Assembly (NCBI GenBank): GCA_029688905.1
Contig: JARULB010000006.1
Span: 186,001 to 250,000, forward strand
Direction: 5' to 3'
Length of the DNA stretch: 64,000 nt
From: Balneolales bacterium ANBcel1
GTDB taxonomy: Bacteria > Bacteroidota > Rhodothermia > Balneolales > Natronogracilivirgulaceae
Below the pieces are notes generated by a model. It was not told the DNA's origin and searched no databases. It saw nothing but the letters and a program-made list of their open reading frames with translations. This document shows, in pieces, positions 2,315 through 46,745 of this stretch (position 1 is the stretch's first letter; each line of letters opens with the position of its first letter). Both the position numbers and the translations under genes were made by a program.

Positions 2315-3988
2315 TCAGCCGTCGGTTACGCACCCTTTCGAAGCGGACGACACATTTCGCAGATACTTCACCAGGGTGCCGCGGGTGGCCTTTAACTCCG
2401 GCGCCTTCCATTCGGCACGCCGCCGTTCCAGTTCGGTCTCGTCGAGATCCACCTCCAGCCGGTTTCGGGCGGCATCAATGGTGATGGTGTCGCCGTCCCG
2501 TACCAGCGCTATGGTTCCGCCTGCCTGCGCTTCCGGTGTAACATGGCCCACGACAAAGCCGTGCGTACCACCCGAAAATCGTCCATCGGTGATGAGAGCG
2601 ACGTCATTGCCGAGACCGGCGCCCATGATAGCCGAAGTCACCGAAAGCATTTCGCGCATCCCGGGTCCGCCCTTCGGACCCTCATACCGGATGATCACCA
2701 CATCACCGGCTCCGACTTTCCCTTTCGATATCCCCTCCAGACACTCCTCCTCGGAGTCGAACGCACGGGCGGTACCGGTAAACTCGGTGCCTTCCTTCCC
2801 GGTGATTTTCGCGACAGACCCCTCCTGCGCCAGGTTGCCATATAATATGGAGAGGTGACCGGTTTTTTTGATCGGTGCGGATACGGGCGCGATGACGGTC
2901 TGGCCCTCCGACAGCCCGGGCAGTTCTTCCAGATTCTCTTCCAGGGTTTTGCCGGTTACCGTGAGGCAGTCACCATGCAGAAAACCCTCTTTAATCAGAA
3001 GCTTCTGCACCGCCGGAACCCCGCCGATATCGTAGAGGTCTTCCATCACAAACTTGCCGCTCGGCTTGAGGTCGGCCAGGAACGGGGTTTTGTCGGAAAT
3101 TCGCTGGAAATCGTCAATGGACAGTTCCACCCCGGCCGAATGGGCCATGGCGAGCAGATGGAGCACTGCGTTGGTGGAGCCGCCGAGCGCTATCACCACG
3201 GTAATGGCGTTCTCGAATGATTTTCGGGTGAGGATTTTGTCGGGGGTGATGTCGCGCTCCAGCAGGATCTTCATGGCGGCGCCTATACGCTCGCACTCCT
3301 CGCGCTTGTCGTCGGAGGTAGCCGGGATGGAGGAGCTGTAGGGCAGACTCATGCCGATGGTTTCGATGGCCGAGGCCATGGTATTGGCGGTGTACATGCC
3401 TCCGCAGGCTCCGGCGCCCGGACAGGCGTGCTTCAATACATTGTCCAGCTCCTCGTCGTTGATTTTTTTGGTCACATATTGTCCCCAGGCCTCAAAAGCC
3501 GAGACAATATCCAGTTTGCTGCTGTGAAAATTTCCGGGACGGATGGTCCCGCCATACAGCATTATTGCAGGGCGATTGAGACGGGCCATGGCCATGACCG
3601 AGCCGGGCATGTTCTTGTCGCATCCCGGAAGAGCCACCACACCGTCGTACCACTGGGCGGCTACCACGGTTTCGATGGAGTCGGCGATGATATCCCGTGA
3701 CTGAAGCGAGTACTTCATACCGGTGGTACCCATGGAGATTCCGTCACTGACCCCGATCGTATGGAAGATGTATCCGATCATGGATTCGGCGATGACTCCG
3801 CTCTTGACCAGCTCCGCCAGTTCGTTCAGGTGCATGTTGCAGGGATTACCGTCCCAGCCCATGCTCGCGATTCCAATCTGGGGTTTATCAAAATCCTCTT
3901 CCTTGAGTCCTGTTGCGTAAAGCATGGCCTGTGATCCCACCTGGGAGCGCACCTGGGTCAGTCTGCTGCTGTATTTGTTCAATGCCAT
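2315..3988 (-). CDS. ilvD: Dihydroxy-acid dehydratase
   Basis: IlvD dehydrates 2,3-dihydroxy-isovalerate and 2,3-dihydroxy-3-methylvalerate to the 2-keto acids, the third common step of valine and isoleucine synthesis. From the ATG at 3988 the protein has 557 residues, the usual family length. The Fe-S ligand cysteines are visible in [10 protein letters not shown] (about residue 50), [10 protein letters not shown] (about 123) and [16 protein letters not shown] (about 190). The C-terminal [14 protein letters not shown] block is also typical. A longer frame reaches 4018 but lacks family similarity there. The gene diverges from the ilv-leu operon and completes the pathway with it, so coordinated control from the 4.0-4.4 kb intergenic region is plausible. 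Confidence 0.96.
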
Positions 3989-4018
3989 ATGTAATAAGGA
4001 TAAATAATACGTTACCAA

Positions 4019-4371
4019 TAGGTTCTAATGATGTTACGGCCGGTGCCGATCGCTATGCTACCACATTGCCACCTCATTCTCAACCTGAAATCATGAATTA
4101 CAGATAACTTTCTTAATTTATTCAAAATAACAGCGATAATTACGCAAGAAGCGCTTACAGATATGAACTAAATCATGCTTATTCGTAAATATCCTGTAAT
4201 TTATAAGGTAATGACTAATTGGTATTTTACTTTATAATGCAAAACTCCGGCAACTTTTAGTGGTTTTTTATTTTTCTCTGAAACGTGCAGTTGACAAAGC
4301 CGATAAAATGATTAGTTTGTGTCGTATCACATTAACAGAAATGCACAAACGGCATATTTGATTTTTTTCTG
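4019..4371. promoter_or_regulatory. Divergent ilvD / ilv-leu intergenic region with candidate promoter
   Basis: About 350 bases, clearly more AT-rich than the flanking genes, separate ilvD from the ilv leader peptide. A consensus TTGACA lies at 4291-4296. Downstream of it, TTAGTTTG at 4312-4319 resembles the Bacteroidota -7 element TAnnTTTG with one mismatch, whereas no good TATAAT occurs 17 bases away. I propose this as the ilv-leu promoter, with low confidence. No operator repeat was obvious. The region carries no convincing gene. Confidence 0.35.
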
Positions 4372-4560
4372 ATGACAACGCATAATCCAAAAACGGTAGC
4401 TCGAACACTCCCCTCCGGCGGCTTCTCCGCCCTGAGCAACCGGCTTGTCACTGAAGGTTATGTGAATATACTCTCCGAGTATGTCGATACGGTTGTACGG
4501 ACATCTGTCGTTGTCGTATCGATTATTCTTGTTATTGACCTACTAATTGGAATTCTATAA
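4372..4560 (+). CDS. Branched-chain amino acid leader peptide (candidate attenuation peptide)
   Basis: A 62-codon frame placed just before ilvB. Of its last 22 residues (41-62), 16 are Val, Ile or Leu, in the order VVRTSVVVVSII then LVIDLLIGIL. The four Leu codons there are CTT, CTA, CTA and CTA, whereas the surrounding enzymes mostly use CTG and CTC. Rare Leu codons of this type are characteristic of leader peptides that time ribosome stalling (E. coli leuL uses them too). The only ATG is at 4372. A GTG at 4462 preceded by GAAGG would give a 32-residue peptide, a more typical leader length. The alternative reading is a small one-helix membrane protein; the position, composition and the hairpins beginning in its last codons favour a leader. 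Confidence 0.65.
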   Translation: MTTHNPKTVARTLPSGGFSALSNRLVTEGYVNILSEYVDTVVRTSVVVVSIILVIDLLIGIL

Positions 4561-4640
4561 TTCCACTCAGAGGTCAACCTTAAGCCCACCCCATACAGGT
4601 AACAAGAAATCGGATTTTAGGTAACGACCTCTGAAAGAGG
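4535..4640 (+). promoter_or_regulatory. Candidate attenuator with mutually exclusive stems 1:2, 2:3 and 3:4
   Basis: Segment 1, TTGACCT at 4535-4541, lies inside the Ile-Asp-Leu codons of the leader peptide. It is perfectly complementary to AGGTCAA at 4571-4577. Segment 2, TCAGAGGTC at 4567-4575, overlaps that arm and is perfectly complementary to segment 3, GACCTCTGA at 4626-4634. Segment 3 overlaps CCTCT at 4628-4632, which pairs with AGAGG at 4636-4640 (segment 4). A further perfect hairpin, GGAATT/AATTCC at 4549-4564, spans the leader stop codon inside the 1:2 structure. This is the classical attenuator logic: a ribosome stalled on Val/Ile/Leu codons would mask segment 1 and favour 2:3. 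No U-tract follows segment 4, so an intrinsic terminator is not evident; Rho or a translational mechanism would be needed. Confidence 0.5.
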
Positions 4641-4850
4641 AACCAACCCGAAACCGATGATCTCCAGCCATATTACTGTATCTGTTTGTAAAGCAACCCA
4701 TCCCGGGCCATCTGCTCTCACAGCTGGCGGGCACACTTCATATATATGTGTCAACGGAAAAGCGACGGGCACATAGGTTACTGTATTCCCGAACACACCA
4801 TCTTTCCCATCTTACGGCACCAACAATCAACACAGATCCCAGATAACACC

Positions 4851-6662
4851 ATGAAACAGTCCCATACGACCCAAACAGCTACGGAAGCGGCAACCAGCCG
4901 ACAGGCATCCGGTTCCGAATCCGGTAAACAGAACCAACAAACCGCACCTTTCGTAAAAAAGGAGATGAACGGTGGCGAGATTCTGATTCAGTCGCTGCTC
5001 GACCAGGGTGTGGATACCATTTTCGGTTACCCCGGAGGTGTGGTCCTGGGAGTGTACGATACTCTGTTTAATACGCCGGAGCTCCGCCATATTCTGGTGC
5101 GCCACGAGCAGGCCGGCACCCATGCCGCCGACGGCTATGCCCGTGCGACCGGCAAACCCGGGGTGATACTGGCGACATCCGGTCCCGGAGCCACGAATAC
5201 GGTAACCGGCATTACCACCGCCATGATGGACTCCATACCGATGGTAGTGCTCACCGGCCAGGTGGCTTCATCGCTCATCGGAAACGATGCTTTCCAGGAA
5301 GCAGACATTATCGGGATGACACGTCCGGTCACCAAACACAGCTTTTTGGTAAAGGATGTCGCCGACCTCGCCGATGCCATCCGGGATGCCTTCTACATCG
5401 CCACTTCGGGACGGCCGGGCCCGGTACTTGTGGATCTGCCCAAGGATATGCTCTTTACAAAGGCAATGTACGAGAAGAGGGATCCGCAGACCGCACTTCG
5501 CGGATATCAGCCCCAGGTGACCGGAGAAAACGACCAGATCCGCAAGGCGGCCGAGCTGATTAATGTTGCCAACAAGCCGCTGCTGTATGTCGGCGGCGGT
5601 GCCATCTCAAGCGATGCCCACAAAGAGGTGATCGAACTCGCCCGCAGAAACAACATCCCGGTAACCACTACGCTGATGGGCCTCGGCGCGTTTCCGGAAA
5701 CGGACCCGCTCTCGGTCGGCATGCTCGGCATGCACGGTACCTGGTACGCCAACATGGCCATCCAGAACTGCGATGTACTGATTGCTGTTGGAGCCCGGTT
5801 CGACGACCGGGTAACCGGCCGTGTTGACGGTTTTGCACCGCACTCCCGCAAAATCCACATCGATATCGACCCCTCCTGCGTAAATAAAAACGTGCATGTG
5901 GAGGTACCGGTAATCGGGGATGTCAAAGTGGTCCTCAATCAGCTCAATAAACTGGTGGATGGAGTTGATACCACCGAATGGCGGGCCACCATCGACAAAT
6001 GGCGGGAAGAGCATCCGCTGCGCTACGAACCCAGAGAAAACGAGATCGCCCCGCAATACATGATCCAGGAGATCTCGCGGGTTACCGGCGGCGAAGCCAT
6101 CATATCGACCGATGTTGGTCAGCACCAGATGTGGGCGGCGCAGTACTACAAATTCAACCATCCGAAATCCTGGTTGTCCTCCGGTGGACTCGGAACAATG
6201 GGCTTCGGCTTCCCGGCCGCCATGGGCGCCGCAGTTGCTCGGCCCGACCGCGATGTGTGGAGCATTACCGGCGACGGTGGATTCCAGATGACCGCCATGG
6301 AGCTGGCAACCGTGGCCGCGTACAATATCCCTGTCAAAATCGCCATCATGAACAACGGATACCTCGGCATGGTGCGCCAGTGGCAGGAGATGTTCTACGG
6401 CGGACGCTATTCCCACTCCTTCCTTGAGGAAAGCAATCCTGATTTTGTGAAAATGGCGGAGTCCTTTGGTGTTACGGCGATGCGGGCCCAAACTCCGGAT
6501 GAACTCAAAGAGGTACTCGAAAAGGCACACGCGATCAAGGACAGGCCGGTATTAATGGATATCCGGGTATCGCAGGAGGAATGCGTCTATCCGATGATTC
6601 CCCCGGGAGCCGCGGTCGACGAGCTGGTTGATACGCCTTACCCTGTTAAACCCCGGAAATAA
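4851..6662 (+). CDS. ilvB: Acetolactate synthase, large (catalytic) subunit
   Basis: A thiamine-diphosphate enzyme that condenses two pyruvates, or pyruvate with 2-oxobutyrate, in the first common step of valine/leucine and isoleucine synthesis. The N-terminal TPP-binding domain contains the catalytic glutamate in [21 protein letters not shown] (split here for length). The central Rossmann-like domain binds FAD. The C-terminal domain has the Mg/TPP motif [15 protein letters not shown]...[12 protein letters not shown]. From the ATG at 4851 the protein has 603 residues. The first about 38 are a Ser/Gln/Thr-rich tail, and a second ATG at 4965 would start exactly at the conserved core ([10 protein letters not shown]). 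It is the first enzyme gene after the proposed attenuator and is followed by ilvN after 30 bases. Confidence 0.96.
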
Positions 6663-6692: not shown

Positions 6693-7205
6693 ATGTCCGA
6701 AGGCTCCAAAAAGGGAAAAAAACACACCATCTCGATGATGGTGAACCACAACTTCAACGCGCTGGCCCGGATCGCCGGGCTCTTCACCGGCCGCGGATTC
6801 AACATCGACAGCATTAGCATCGGCGAAGCGGAAGAAGAGAAAATGGCCAGCTGTACCATCACCACCCACGGCGATGAACGCATCATCGACCAGATCATCC
6901 TCCAGCTCGACAAGCTGGTGGATGTCGTAAGTGTCGAGGATCTCACGTTCCTGCCCCATGTGGAGCGGGAACTGGCGCTGATCAAGGTCAAATCCAGCAA
7001 GGAAAAACAGACCGAAATCATCCAGGTGGCCAACGTCTTCCGGGCCAAGGTGATCGACATCAGCACCGAAAGCCTGACCATCGAAATCACCGGCCGGAAG
7101 GACAAGGTGGACGCCGCCATCGGCATGTTCGAGCCGTTCGGCATCCGACAGGTAGCCCGAACCGGTACCGTCGCCATGAAACGGGAGTACCGGCCCAAAG
7201 AGTGA
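6693..7205 (+). CDS. ilvN: Acetolactate synthase, small (regulatory) subunit
   Basis: A 170-residue regulatory partner of IlvB. Residues about 8-85 form an ACT domain (ISMMVNHNFNALARIAGLFTGRGFNIDSI), the site of valine feedback in the family. The remainder is the ALS_ss_C domain ending in GTVAMKREYRPKE. The conserved N-G/N-F turn and the RGFNIDS block are both present. It lies 30 bases after ilvB and in the same direction, so the two subunits are presumably co-translated. The following gap of about 340 bases before ilvC suggests a possible internal promoter or processing site. Confidence 0.95.
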   Translation: MSEGSKKGKKHTISMMVNHNFNALARIAGLFTGRGFNIDSISIGEAEEEKMASCTITTHGDERIIDQIILQLDKLVDVVSVEDLTFLPHVERELALIKVKSSKEKQTEIIQVANVFRAKVIDISTESLTIEITGRKDKVDAAIGMFEPFGIRQVARTGTVAMKREYRPKE

Positions 7206-7541
7206 GTACCATGCTAACCGGCGCTTCCCGCCAGTTGCACAGAATGTCGGGCAATCCACATGTAACGACATATCACATTATATTTCAATACTTTAACCCA
7301 TAACACACCATCCCCGGATGAACAGCCGTCACTCGACTCAGCCACCCCGCAAGGCAGCAACGGCCGGATTGGTGCTGACGCTCGGGCCGGCATTCAACGG
7401 GATGATCCATCCATCTTACATCCAATCATTAAAACTTATACCAACAGATGAAACATCCATGGCCAACAATTCGGCACACAGGCGGATGATTAAACCCATG
7501 GATGCTGCATGTGACAGTATGAGTCAAAAAAATTTAAACAC
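7206..7541 (+). other. ilvN-ilvC intergenic gap
   Basis: 336 bases without a convincing gene. An AT-rich stretch around 7275-7300 (ATTATATTTCAATACTTTAA) could hold an internal promoter for ilvC and downstream genes, but no clear two-part promoter is visible. An open frame from 7318 has no family features and runs into the ilvC start. The bases just before the ilvC ATG are A-rich (AAAAAAATTTAAACAC) and there is no Shine-Dalgarno sequence. Confidence 0.4.
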
Positions 7542-8534
7542 ATGAAACTTTATTACGACAACGACGCCGACCTTTCCGTCCTGAAAAACAAAACCGTGGC
7601 CGTTCTCGGTTACGGCAGTCAGGGACACGCCCATGCGCGCAACCTGCACGAAAGCGGAGTTTCGGTGATCGTCGGTTTGCGAAAGGGGAGCAAATCCTGG
7701 AAAACGGCGGAATCCGACGGGCTGACCGTCCATGAAACCGCCGTGGCTGCCGAAAAGGCCGATATTGTGATGGTACTGCTGCCCGATGAAAAGCAGAAGG
7801 AGGTGTACGAATCGGATATCGCTCCGAACCTCAAGGCCGGAAACGCGCTGGTATTCGCGCATGGCTTCAACATTCATTTCAGTCAGATCGTACCGCCTGA
7901 GAATGTAGGCGTATTCATGGTAGCGCCAAAAGGACCGGGACATCTGGTGCGCCGCGTGTACACCGAGGGGGCCGGCGTACCCTGCCTGTTTGCCATCCAC
8001 CAGGATCCCGACAACACCATGCGCGAAATTGCCCTGGCCTATGCCAAAGGCATCGGCGGCACCAGGGCGGGTGTTATCGAGACCACCTTCGAGGAAGAGA
8101 CTGAAACGGACCTGTTCGGCGAGCAGGCGGTATTGTGCGGCGGCGTTACCGAATTGATCAATACCGGTTTTGAAGTGCTGGTGAACGCAGGCTACAAACC
8201 GGAAATCGCCTATTTCGAATGTCTGCATGAAATGAAGCTGATCGTGGACCTGATGTACGAGGGCGGTATCGCCGGCATGTACTACTCGGTGAGCGATACG
8301 GCGGAGTACGGTGGAATGACGGCCGGCCCGAAGGTGATCGATGCCGGAACCCGCCGTCGTATGGAAGAACTTCTGGAGAATATCCAGAGCGGGAAGTTTG
8401 CCCGCGACTGGATCCTGGAAAACAAGGCCGGGCGCCCCTCGCTCGAAGCGTTGCGGAGAAAGCATGATCGGCTCCCCATTGAAAAGGTCGGTGGTGAATT
8501 GCGAAACATGATGAGCTGGATCAAAAAGGACTGA
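7542..8534 (+). CDS. ilvC: Ketol-acid reductoisomerase (class I)
   Basis: Converts acetolactate and acetohydroxybutyrate to the dihydroxy acids by Mg-dependent alkyl migration and NAD(P)H reduction. It is 330 residues long, the short class I size. The N-terminal Rossmann motif is [17 protein letters not shown], and the cofactor-selecting beta2-alphaB loop is LRKGSKSW. The C-terminal knotted domain carries the metal ligands in the [16 protein letters not shown] and [12 protein letters not shown] segments. The R-x-x-S-x-S pattern in the loop is the usual NADPH type. The gene is followed after 7 bases by cimA. Confidence 0.97.
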
Positions 8535-8541
8535 ACAACTC

Positions 8542-10136
<1,595 letters not shown>

Positions 10137-10140
<4 letters not shown>

Positions 10141-11345
10141 AAAAACGGATTCAGATTTTCGACACGACTCTGCGCGACGGTGAACAGGCACCCGGGTTCA
10201 GCATGAACCTGGAAGAAAAAGTTCGGATGGCGAGTCAACTCGAACTACTGGGGCCGGATGTGATTGAAGCCGGCTTCCCCATCTCTTCCGAGAGTGATTT
10301 CATGGCAGTTCGCGAAATTGCGAAGAAAATCAAAAGCTGCACCATTGCAGGACTCTCCCGTGCGATTAAAGGCGACATAGACCGCGCCTGGGAAGCGGTG
10401 GAATACGCGGAGAAACCGCGCATTCACACCTTTATCGCCACCTCCGACATCCATATGAAATACAAACTCAAAAAGTCGCGGCAGGAAGTGCTGGACGATG
10501 CGGTCTGGGCGGTGGAATACGCCCGCAGCCTTTCGCCCGATGTTGAGTTTTCGGCCGAAGATGCCACCCGCACCGACATCGACTTCCTCTGTCAGATTGT
10601 GGAGGCGGCCATCGATGCCGGCGCCAACGTCATCAACATCCCCGACACGGTGGGGTATGCCCTCCCCTGGGAGTTTGGCGAGATGATCCGCACGATTCGG
10701 CAGCGTGTATCCAATATCGACAAGGCCATTCTGAGTGTGCATTGCCACGACGATCTCGGCATGGGTGTCGCAAACTCCCTGATGGCCATTCGAAACGGGG
10801 CGCAGCAAATCGAGTGCACTGTGAACGGTATCGGCGAACGGGCCGGCAACGCCGCACTTGAGGAAATTGTAATGGCGATCCAGACCCGGAGTCCCGAGTT
10901 TGAGCAGGAGACCGGCATCAACGCGACCGAAATCTACCCCACCAGCCGTATGCTCTGCGAAATCACAGGCATGAACGTGCAGGTGAACAAGGCGATTGTC
11001 GGAAACAACGCCTTTTCGCACGAGGCGGGAATCCATCAGGACGGCGTGCTTAAAAACCCGCTCACCTACGAGATCATGACACCGCAGTCGGTAGGTATCT
11101 CATCCAACAAGATTGTGCTGGGCAAACACTCCGGGCGACGCGCCCTGAGCGCCCGCCTGGAAAACCTGGGCTACAAGTTCACAAAGGAGGAGATGAACGA
11201 GGTGTACGAAGCGTTCATCCGGATCACCGACAGCAAAAAGATTGTCGAGGACGATGACCTTCACGGACTCGGTCCCGCCGGAATTTCCGATCTCAGTAAC
11301 AAGTTTATCAAGGAGACCGTGCAGGAAATCCTTGAAAAGAAATAG
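10137..11345 (+). CDS. leuA: 2-Isopropylmalate synthase, short form without allosteric domain
   Basis: Catalyses acetyl-CoA plus 2-oxoisovalerate to 2-isopropylmalate, the first committed step to leucine. The HMGL-like barrel contains [17 protein letters not shown] at residues 8-24 and the [15 protein letters not shown] metal motif, followed by the two small subdomains with [17 protein letters not shown]. At 402 residues it ends just after the linker region ([15 protein letters not shown]). The roughly 120-residue C-terminal leucine-binding domain of full-length LeuA, which the neighbouring CimA still has, is absent. Direct leucine feedback by that domain is therefore unlikely (inference). 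The stop codon is intact and no frameshift remnant of the missing domain was seen downstream. Confidence 0.93.
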
Positions 11346-11447
11346 CCGGTGGAACTGCCCCCGCTCTTTCGTGAGGCATTTGCGGAAGAGTCCGCCGTGC
11401 CACATTATACTATCAACAGCATACGAACTATCTAATTATCTGTAATC

Positions 11448-12761
11448 ATGTCAATGACTTTAACGGAAAAAATCCTGGCCAGGGCATCGGGCCGCACACA
11501 TGTCGATGCCGGAGAAACCGTATGGGTGAATGTGGACGTTCTCCTGACCCACGACGTCTGCGGACCACCCACCATCGGAATCTTCAAGCGGGAATTTGGT
11601 CAGGATGCCCGGGTTTGGGATAAAAACAAGATCGTTATCATCCCCGACCACTATATTTTCACCAACGACAAGTACGCCAATCGCAACATCGACATCCTCC
11701 GTGCCTTTGCCGCCGACCAGGACCTGCCGCACTATTATGATGTCGGCACCGACCGGTATAAAGGGGTCTGCCATACCGCCATGCCCGAAGAAGGCTTCAC
11801 ACGTCCCGGCGACGTGCTTTTCGGTACCGATTCGCATACCTGCACCGCGGGAGCGTTCGGACAGTTCGCCACCGGAATCGGAAATACCGACGCCGGATTC
11901 ATCATGGGTGCGGGCAAGCTCTGGGTAAAAGTGCCGGAGACCATGAAGTTTATTTTTGAAGGAGAAATCCCGCCGTATGTGATGGCCAAGGACCTTATCC
12001 TTCAAATTATCGGAGATATCGGTGTGGACGGCGGAACCTATCGTGCCATGGAATTTGCCGGCGACGGTGTGATGAACATGGATATGGAGGGGCGCATGAC
12101 GCTGACCAACATGGTGATCGAGGGCGGTGGCAAAAACGGAGTGGTTGAACCCGACGAAACAACCTTCGAATACGTACGCAAACGCACCGACTACCAGTTT
12201 ACGCCAATGTACAACGACCCGGACGCAAAGTATCACAGTGTGCGTACCTATAAAAGCTCCGAGCTTCAGCCCATGGTCGCCAAACCCCATTCGCCGGATA
12301 ACAAGGCGACCGTATGGGAGGTCAGAAACACGCCCCTTACCCGCGCCTACATCGGCTCGTGCACCGGCGGCAAGCTCTCGGACTTTGAGGCCGCCGCGAA
12401 AATCATCAAAGGACACGAGGTTGGTATTGAGACCTACGTGGTTCCCGCAACAACCAAAGTTCGCGAAGATCTCAAAACCACCTATTACGAAGGGGAAACT
12501 CTCTGGGATATTTTTGAAAACGCCGGTGCCCGCATGGGTGAAGCCTCCTGCGCGGCCTGTCTGGGCGGCCCCTCCGACACCTTTGGACGCATGCAGGGCG
12601 AAGAGGTCTGTATCTCCACCACCAACCGGAATTTCCCGGGGCGGATGGGATCCAAAAAAGCGCAGGTGTATCTGGCTTCGCCCTATACGGTTGCCGCATC
12701 GGCCATCACCGGAAAGATCACCGATCCGCGGGAATACCTGCCGGTTGAAAGTGCCGTTTGA
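11448..12761 (+). CDS. leuC: 3-Isopropylmalate dehydratase, large subunit
   Basis: LeuC and LeuD isomerise 2-isopropylmalate to 3-isopropylmalate via a [4Fe-4S] cluster. It probably also handles citramalate here. At 437 residues it is somewhat shorter than E. coli LeuC and resembles the LeuC/HacA group found in archaea and many non-proteobacterial lineages. Visible aconitase-type features are GTDSHTCTAGAFGQFATGIG (first cluster cysteine), YIGSCTGGKL and CAACLGGPSDTFG (remaining cluster cysteines), then TTNRNFPGRMG. A 100-base gap follows leuA and a 186-base gap precedes leuD. The latter holds a perfect GCCGGT/ACCGGC hairpin at 12788-12801. Confidence 0.95.
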   Translation: MSMTLTEKILARASGRTHVDAGETVWVNVDVLLTHDVCGPPTIGIFKREFGQDARVWDKNKIVIIPDHYIFTNDKYANRNIDILRAFAADQDLPHYYDVGTDRYKGVCHTAMPEEGFTRPGDVLFGTDSHTCTAGAFGQFATGIGNTDAGFIMGAGKLWVKVPETMKFIFEGEIPPYVMAKDLILQIIGDIGVDGGTYRAMEFAGDGVMNMDMEGRMTLTNMVIEGGGKNGVVEPDETTFEYVRKRTDYQFTPMYNDPDAKYHSVRTYKSSELQPMVAKPHSPDNKATVWEVRNTPLTRAYIGSCTGGKLSDFEAAAKIIKGHEVGIETYVVPATTKVREDLKTTYYEGETLWDIFENAGARMGEASCAACLGGPSDTFGRMQGEEVCISTTNRNFPGRMGSKKAQVYLASPYTVAASAITGKITDPREYLPVESAV

Positions 12762-46111: not shown

Positions 46112-46745
46112 GATTACAATTGCATTTCAGATTCAGGCGGAGCAGCCGGGAAAAAGATTACGCACAGGCCGCAAGGTTTCACTGCAGGCAGCAGAACTCA
46201 TCCGGTTGATCCGCCGATTACAAACGATACAAGAGAGGGGCCACTTGGAAAATCGGCTGCTCGACAAGAAGGGCAAAAGAAGTGGTTCGCTGCATGCCGG
46301 CGAATTCACTCCCAAAGCACTCCACGATCAGCATTTGAATACACTTCGTGACAGTCCCGGGGATTCAGCCCACGGTCCCAACACACCGGAAGGCCACTCT
46401 CCCGGGATGTTTCGGCAAATGCCCCCTGGCCATCGGTCACTGGCAAAAACTGGCGCCTTGCGATAGTTACCTGGCATCTGCTCCTCTTCAGGTTTTTGAT
46501 AAACTTAGCAAGAATTGCCGTCAACTCAAAACAAAAAACGCTTGTGTCACTACCAAAAATGGTTATTATAAAGCAGGTTACCTTGACGATAAGAATGGCA
46601 ATTACCACTCGTTACCCGCAGTCGAATACAAGATGGAGCGGGTGGACGGCATGAATTTCGGAAGCCCGTTATACTTTCAAATAAAGAGCAGGAACCCGGG
46701 ACCTCCTCGCGCTGAAACGGACCCGCAATTGCAGATACTGTTCAG
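46112..46745. other. Divergent 5' region between dapB and the B12-sensor operon, no supported gene
   Basis: 634 bases that should hold promoters for both directions. The 46490-46740 part is AT-richer and includes a GGTTATTATAAAGC stretch at 46561-46574 that could contribute a -10 box for the plus-strand operon. No -35 match at proper spacing stands out. Open frames here (for example 46348-46749 plus and 46306-46608 minus) show no family features, and I do not accept them. A stretch at 46340-46379 on the minus strand loosely resembles a cobalamin riboswitch core but lacks the other conserved parts. Confidence 0.4.

Follow-up and report, generated by a model that had tools for sequence, protein, structure and literature searches.

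The window, that is, the whole stretch of 64,000 nucleotides analyzed here, corresponds to positions 186001-250000 of contig C6 in a 3.3 Mb genome, with the Balneolales MAG L031 (86% IlvB identity) as its nearest named relative. The leader described below is located between a divergent ilvD-like ORF and ilvB, and the locus contains the following features.

2315-4018, minus strand: ilvD-like ORF, divergent from the ilvB operon.
4291-4319, plus strand: putative promoter-like element, TTGACA (4291-4296) and TTAGTTTG (4312-4319), conserved in aligned relatives.
4372-4560, plus strand: leader peptide ORF of 62 aa with an I/L/V-rich tail and rare CTA codons, from the ORF call and tail conservation.
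4535-4541, plus strand: segment 1, TTGACCT, in the last leader codons ATT GAC CTA.
4567-4577, plus strand: segment 2, TCAGAGGTCAA, beginning 7 nt past the leader stop.
4609-4658, plus strand: OFF hairpin, ATCGG (4609-4613) with CCGAT (4654-4658), GGT (4620-4622) with ACC (4646-4648), and CCTCT (4628-4632) with AGAGG (4636-4640).
4626-4634, plus strand: segment 3, GACCTCTGA, the partner of segment 2 in the ON fold.
4657-4776, plus strand: putative uORF2 of 39 aa, MISSHITVSV..., its ATG partly paired within the OFF hairpin.
4851-6662, plus strand: ilvB, coding for the acetolactate synthase large subunit (Pfam TPP_enzyme_N, M, and C), with ATG 4851 as the likely start.
6693-12761, plus strand: ilvN, ilvC, two HMGL-like synthases (LeuA/CimA type), and an aconitase-family gene (leuC-like), assigned by Pfam.

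The ilvB start ATGAAA is kept in most relatives. The promoter-like element has an identical TTGAC and an equally spaced TTA..TT in 11/11 aligned loci of family 1, and a comparable TTGAC ... T(A)..TTT was found upstream of the leader in the Balneolaceae. Elsewhere in the window, a lysine riboswitch (Rfam RF00168, 84.7 bits; 46307-46496, minus strand) precedes dapB-like (46111-45374) and dapA-like (45422-44442) minus-strand ORFs, which were named from sequence only.

A preliminary description of this DNA had pointed to a short frame rich in branched-chain residues. This frame, 4372-4560, indeed contains 16 Ile, Leu, or Val residues among its last 22, with the Leu codons CTT, CTA, CTA, and CTA, and its C-terminal end reads ...VVRTSVVVVSIILVIDLLIGIL. 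Only 1 of the 1580 stop-to-stop frames of at least 22 aa in the window has at least 14 such residues in its last 22, and that one is the leader frame. Leucine is coded by CTA in 77-80% of cases in the leader tails, compared with 2% in the window genes (based on 36 window ORFs) and 1% in the Balneolaceae ilvB genes. Rare codons make amino acid sensors sensitive, as in the leu leaders, so the excess of CTA in the tails fits expectation. The tail of the family 1 leaders is 68% identical, compared with 25-29% for the remaining peptide (11 loci); the start codon is ATG in 10 of the 11 aligned loci and ATA in L009. Many Balneolaceae leaders (L024-L027, L111-L141) have no in-frame ATG, and a conserved TTG (TTGTCTACCGCAATAACACAT) is their likely start.

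The pairings proposed earlier were all recovered at the stated coordinates. TTGACCT in the last leader codons pairs with AGGTCAA (4571-4577), and TCAGAGGTC (4567-4575) pairs with segment 3 in the minimum free energy fold. In the window (L001), codon permutation gives a mean energy of -10.4 kcal/mol for the 1:2 duplex, and the actual duplex has -16.7 kcal/mol (p 0.025); for 2:3 the value is -24.3 kcal/mol, with a shuffle mean of -11.7 (p 0.005, the lowest p that 200 shuffles allow). The 3:4 stem needs one correction: CCTCT and AGAGG do pair, but as the tip of a longer hairpin closed by 4609-4613 and 4654-4658. This OFF hairpin takes in the AU of ATG 4657 and has an energy of -17.2 kcal/mol (z -2.79), with 0/200 shuffles as low, and L003 has the same outer stem. 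The observation of a leader with these pairings is right and lies well beyond chance.

To place the element in its lineage, 128 genomes of the order were searched, of which 59 carry this type of IlvB and 54 were testable; in the other 5 of the 59 loci the contig start lies too near, or inside, ilvB. In 54/54 testable Balneolales loci, an I/L/V-rich frame stops just ahead of a segment 2 that has a matching segment 3 downstream. Conservation of the Val/Ile/Leu run in related genomes had been suggested as a check, with orthologous loci lacking both frame and pairing as evidence against attenuation, and every testable locus has the run and the pairing. Tested locus by locus against codon permutations or shuffles (p<0.05), the 1:2 pairing was significant in 40/57 and the 2:3 pairing in 57/57. 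Segment 2 has a conserved core, CAGAGGTCA in family 1 and GCCAGAGGTTAG in the Balneolaceae, and segment 3 is kept across all families retaining its sequence. The codons of segment 1 shift and yet pair, being GAC CTA in family 1, CTA ATT TCT GGC in the Balneolaceae (f3), and TCA GGA AT in f5. Family 1 has (T)TGACCT, within ATT GAC CTA, as segment 1, and the Balneolaceae have CTAATTTCTGGC, which forms 12 pairs with GCCAGAGGTTAG; 95.6% of the cells of this Balneolaceae pairing are paired, compared with 28-50% when it is slid. In L021 and L023, TCAGGAAT (segment 1) appears to pair with ATTCCTGA, and segments 2 and 3 read as GTCATTCC and GGAGTGAC.

The proposed search for compensatory changes was successful for one helix. 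The 3:4 helix of the Balneolaceae showed such changes in 8 cells, a score that 0/500 shuffles reached, while within this family covariation in 2:3 was weak and that in 1:2 was no better than in shuffles. The lack of a 1:2 signal is explained by the sequence, which hardly varies in this family. Consensus folding of the same alignment found the 2:3 helix alone, and this is expected because the segments must satisfy two pairings. Between families the sequence changes and the predicted pairing logic stays, and this replacement of segments is, at the level of sequence, stronger evidence than covariation within the Balneolaceae.

The preliminary description had also noted that no U-tract follows the last stem, and this was confirmed and extended, as the longest T run between segment 3 and the first ATG was 3 in the 54 loci. 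No terminator-like site was found in window 4000-5000. A canonical intrinsic terminator (GC hairpin plus U tract) as the 3:4 structure is not supported, as none was found and no T run exceeds 3. The terminator step of the earlier proposal was therefore not borne out; what lies next to or within the last hairpin is a start codon. The distance from segment 3 to the ilvB ATG is 32-36 nt in 34/34 Balneolaceae loci, while the gap between segments 2 and 3 varies. In the Balneolaceae this space is taken up by the hairpin competing with 2:3, which stops just a few nt short of the ilvB ATG. Its family 1 counterpart is longer and likewise reaches the first downstream ATG; examples are GGTAATGAC/GTCATTTACC directly before the ATG in L007 and GTAGGG/CCCTAC in L013. 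The region from -15 to +3 of the first ATG was then folded with segment 2 free or masked, and it was more open with segment 2 free in 51/51 loci (means 0.60 vs 0.38, p ~5e-10), with a moderate gap in the window (0.48 free vs 0.34 masked) and a gap near zero in L013 and L025. Sequestration of the start region by the OFF hairpin, as in erm-type attenuators, was found in the Balneolaceae and only indirectly in the window, where the ATG is that of uORF2. Since the last hairpin abuts or includes a start codon and no terminator accompanies it, the output of the attenuator is more likely translation initiation than transcription termination.

An internal control is provided by sister Balneolaceae genera that have another IlvB (45-48% identity) and ilvD first in the operon. 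An I/L/V leader of 20-25 aa was found by the scan in L165, L167, and L168, and a similar leader was recognized by eye in L166; a GC hairpin followed by T8-T9 lies right before ilvD in 4/4 of the loci examined. One of these leader peptides reads MLSTIISLVIIQVIIGEYRLGK. The ilvD leaders of L165-L168 are predicted to be classical transcription attenuators. Terminator-type leaders are thus visible in this order, and therefore the absence of a terminator at ilvB is real.

Outside this set, an apparent ilvD coding sequence lies directly upstream of ilvB, with no leader, in L032 (67% IlvB, a Calditrichia MAG), L035, and L038. Beyond the order, I/L/V leaders with a strong 2:3 pairing of unrelated sequence were seen in the Rhodothermus-like L036 and L162-L164, and in L149-L152, L156, and L041. 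L036 and L162-L164 combine a 2:3 pairing of 10 pairs with a neighboring, very stable helix, TTGGCACTTCACAGGC/GCCTGTGAGGTAGCC, whose end coincides exactly with the ilvB ATG. With these Rhodothermus-like loci, the start-codon design may extend outside the order.

Taken together, we favor, with a probability of about 0.7, ribosome-mediated attenuation in which charged Leu/Ile (and Val) tRNA is sensed and translation initiation is the main target. The ribosome-mediated logic suggested earlier for the ilv-leu genes is strongly supported by every testable relative, each of which has the I/L/V run, rare codons, and three competing pairings, and the term attenuator is supported because the leader, the overlapping pairings, and the CTA bias are conserved. 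In the proposed mechanism, the leader 4372-4560 would be translated, and slow reading of the CTA and ATT codons would leave a stalled ribosome covering segment 1, so that 2:3 could form and the downstream start codon would be open (ON). Complete reading of the leader, or no translation of it at all, would leave segment 2 either covered or paired with segment 1. Segment 3, now free, would enter a hairpin that reaches or spans the first ATG downstream (OFF). This hidden ATG would be that of ilvB in most family-4 relatives and in the Balneolaceae, but ATG 4657 of uORF2 in the window species, where coupling, reinitiation, or a loss of ribosome cover might switch ilvB. We infer that the leader is translated, that ribosomes stall on it, that the system responds to amino acids, and that uORF2 relays the signal to ilvB.

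A footprint model helps to refine these steps. The state with no ribosome was the most closed (mean 0.41 vs 0.53 for stalled, p ~2e-8). Placing a ribosome at the stop codon gave 0.51 vs 0.53 for stalled, which was not significant, and did not always restore the OFF fold. As this position does not clearly give OFF, we take ribosome release and subsequent 1:2 re-pairing to be the likelier OFF route. Modeled openness rises for stalls over the tail, and in the window the ON state required a stall within roughly the last 4-8 codons, at CTA CTA ATT.

The putative uORF2 of the window opens with ATG 4657 in the OFF hairpin and ends 74 nt before the ilvB ATG. Small ORFs are present at the matching place in other relatives with a long spacer, namely L003, L007-L009, L011, L015, and L018, and most end 13-38 nt before ilvB. 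They are 25 aa long in all four of L007, L008, L009, and L011, and in L011 the stretch before ilvB is partly duplicated. Several of these second small ORFs contain Cys pairs, e.g., RACVCF, GACCRYSC, and ARCCM. Just before ilvB in L004, L007, L008, L009, and L011, CATCTG...CAGATG could pair over the ilvB ATG. In four of these five, the uORF2 stop appears to lie within the 5' arm, a position that would suit a relay by coupling. A precedent for such a relay is ermB, which uses two leader peptides (PMC8274638). The last step in the window species can only be proposed indirectly because the hidden ATG belongs to uORF2 and not to ilvB, and a relay from uORF2 to ilvB by coupling or reinitiation would be the simplest reading. 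That stalling throughout the order opens a start codon and does not prevent a transcription stop, with some species including that of the window acting through such a relay, is a tentative generalization, to which we give somewhat less than an even chance.

Other explanations of the locus were considered. Ribosome-mediated transcription attenuation, Rho-dependent or lacking a U tract, would have the OFF hairpin or an untranslated C-rich spacer stop RNA polymerase before ilvB. It would use the same leader and antiterminator-like logic, and the long G-poor spacers seen by eye in family 1 and the canonical ilv transcription attenuators of the sister genera speak for it, as do the Rho-dependent leaders without obvious terminators that have been proposed for Mycobacterium cys operons (PMC1262725). 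However, we consider it unlikely, as there is no U tract anywhere, and the Balneolaceae hairpin has a fixed position relative to the ilvB ATG and ends so close to it that no spacer is left for Rho loading.

The preferred reading, a translational attenuator, was also weighed against explanations that involve no stalled ribosome. A riboswitch, T-box, ppGpp riboswitch, or other ligand- or protein-binding RNA might overlap the ORF by chance; segments 2 and 3 are conserved RNA segments ahead of ilvB, and some Firmicutes use ppGpp riboswitches to regulate ilvB (PMC10272879). Such an RNA is very improbable here: Rfam gave no match (E<=1) on L001, L016, L034, L036, L037, or L041 and nothing except the lysine riboswitch in the window, segment 1 lies within the codon run, and the variable sequence between the paired arms leaves no conserved aptamer core. 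Least probable of all is that the leader frame codes for a small, hydrophobic membrane protein that has no part in regulation, a possibility that the preliminary description had raised against its own proposal. The hydrophobic C-terminal tail and the conservation of the start and the length of ~60 aa in family 1 would agree with this. However, the peptide has no Pfam match, and its tail alone is conserved, mainly as an I/L/V run, with ~80% use of a 2% codon; in addition, the RNA pairs with the sequence after the stop, and the frame is always located just ahead of ilvB.

Amino acid attenuators are a textbook case of translation controlling transcription. The same amino acid sensor appears here to control translation, and it is conserved in at least 54 genomes of the order. 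The terminator version in the sister genera is a natural comparison, with one sensor and two outputs, and the two can be compared within one order because the sister genera with the rearranged operon use the classical terminator form. The element also offers reporters for the branched-chain amino acid state in Balneolota. The preliminary description knew of no such leader in this lineage. This agrees with our search of largely non-subscription papers, in which no such leader was described for Balneolales, but it needs qualification, as canonical terminator-type ilv leaders are present in the sister genera.

Attenuators with branched-chain leaders are known, including the ilvB motifs in several phyla (PMC10272879, PMC1262725), and classical transcription attenuators have been described in enteric bacteria and for Corynebacterium ilvBNC (PMC11857589, PMC10272879). 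Similar to the classical ilv, leu, and ivb attenuators, the element has an I/L/V-rich leader before ilv genes, mutually exclusive pairings, and segment 1 within the leader codons. However, it has no intrinsic terminator or U tract, its final hairpin lies on a start codon, its leader of ~60 aa has a CTA-rich tail, and its RNA sequence is unrelated. The ilvD leaders of L165-L168 are likewise short I/L/V leaders before an ilv operon, and in the same order, but theirs is a peptide of 20-25 aa with a GC hairpin and T8-T9 before ilvD. The ilvB-OMG, ilvB, and ilvB-II motifs are also ilvB leader RNAs with branched-chain-rich uORFs (PMC10272879); in contrast, ilvB-II is of the terminator type in Corynebacterium (PMC10272879), and the Balneolales loci tested match no Rfam family. 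Amino acid attenuation by covering the ribosome-binding site was outlined by Lopatovskaya, Seliverstov, and Lyubetsky (2010; cited in PMC4833913), and, as far as that account goes, their predicted attenuators share this concept with the element. The likeness to the erm-type translational attenuators (ermC, ermB) is that stalling of a ribosome on the leader would release a start region held in a hairpin, and the second small ORF that lies between leader and gene is reminiscent of ermBL2 of ermB (PMC8274638). Unlike in the erm type, uncharged tRNA for the pathway's own products, and not a drug, would be the trigger, and the target is a biosynthetic operon.
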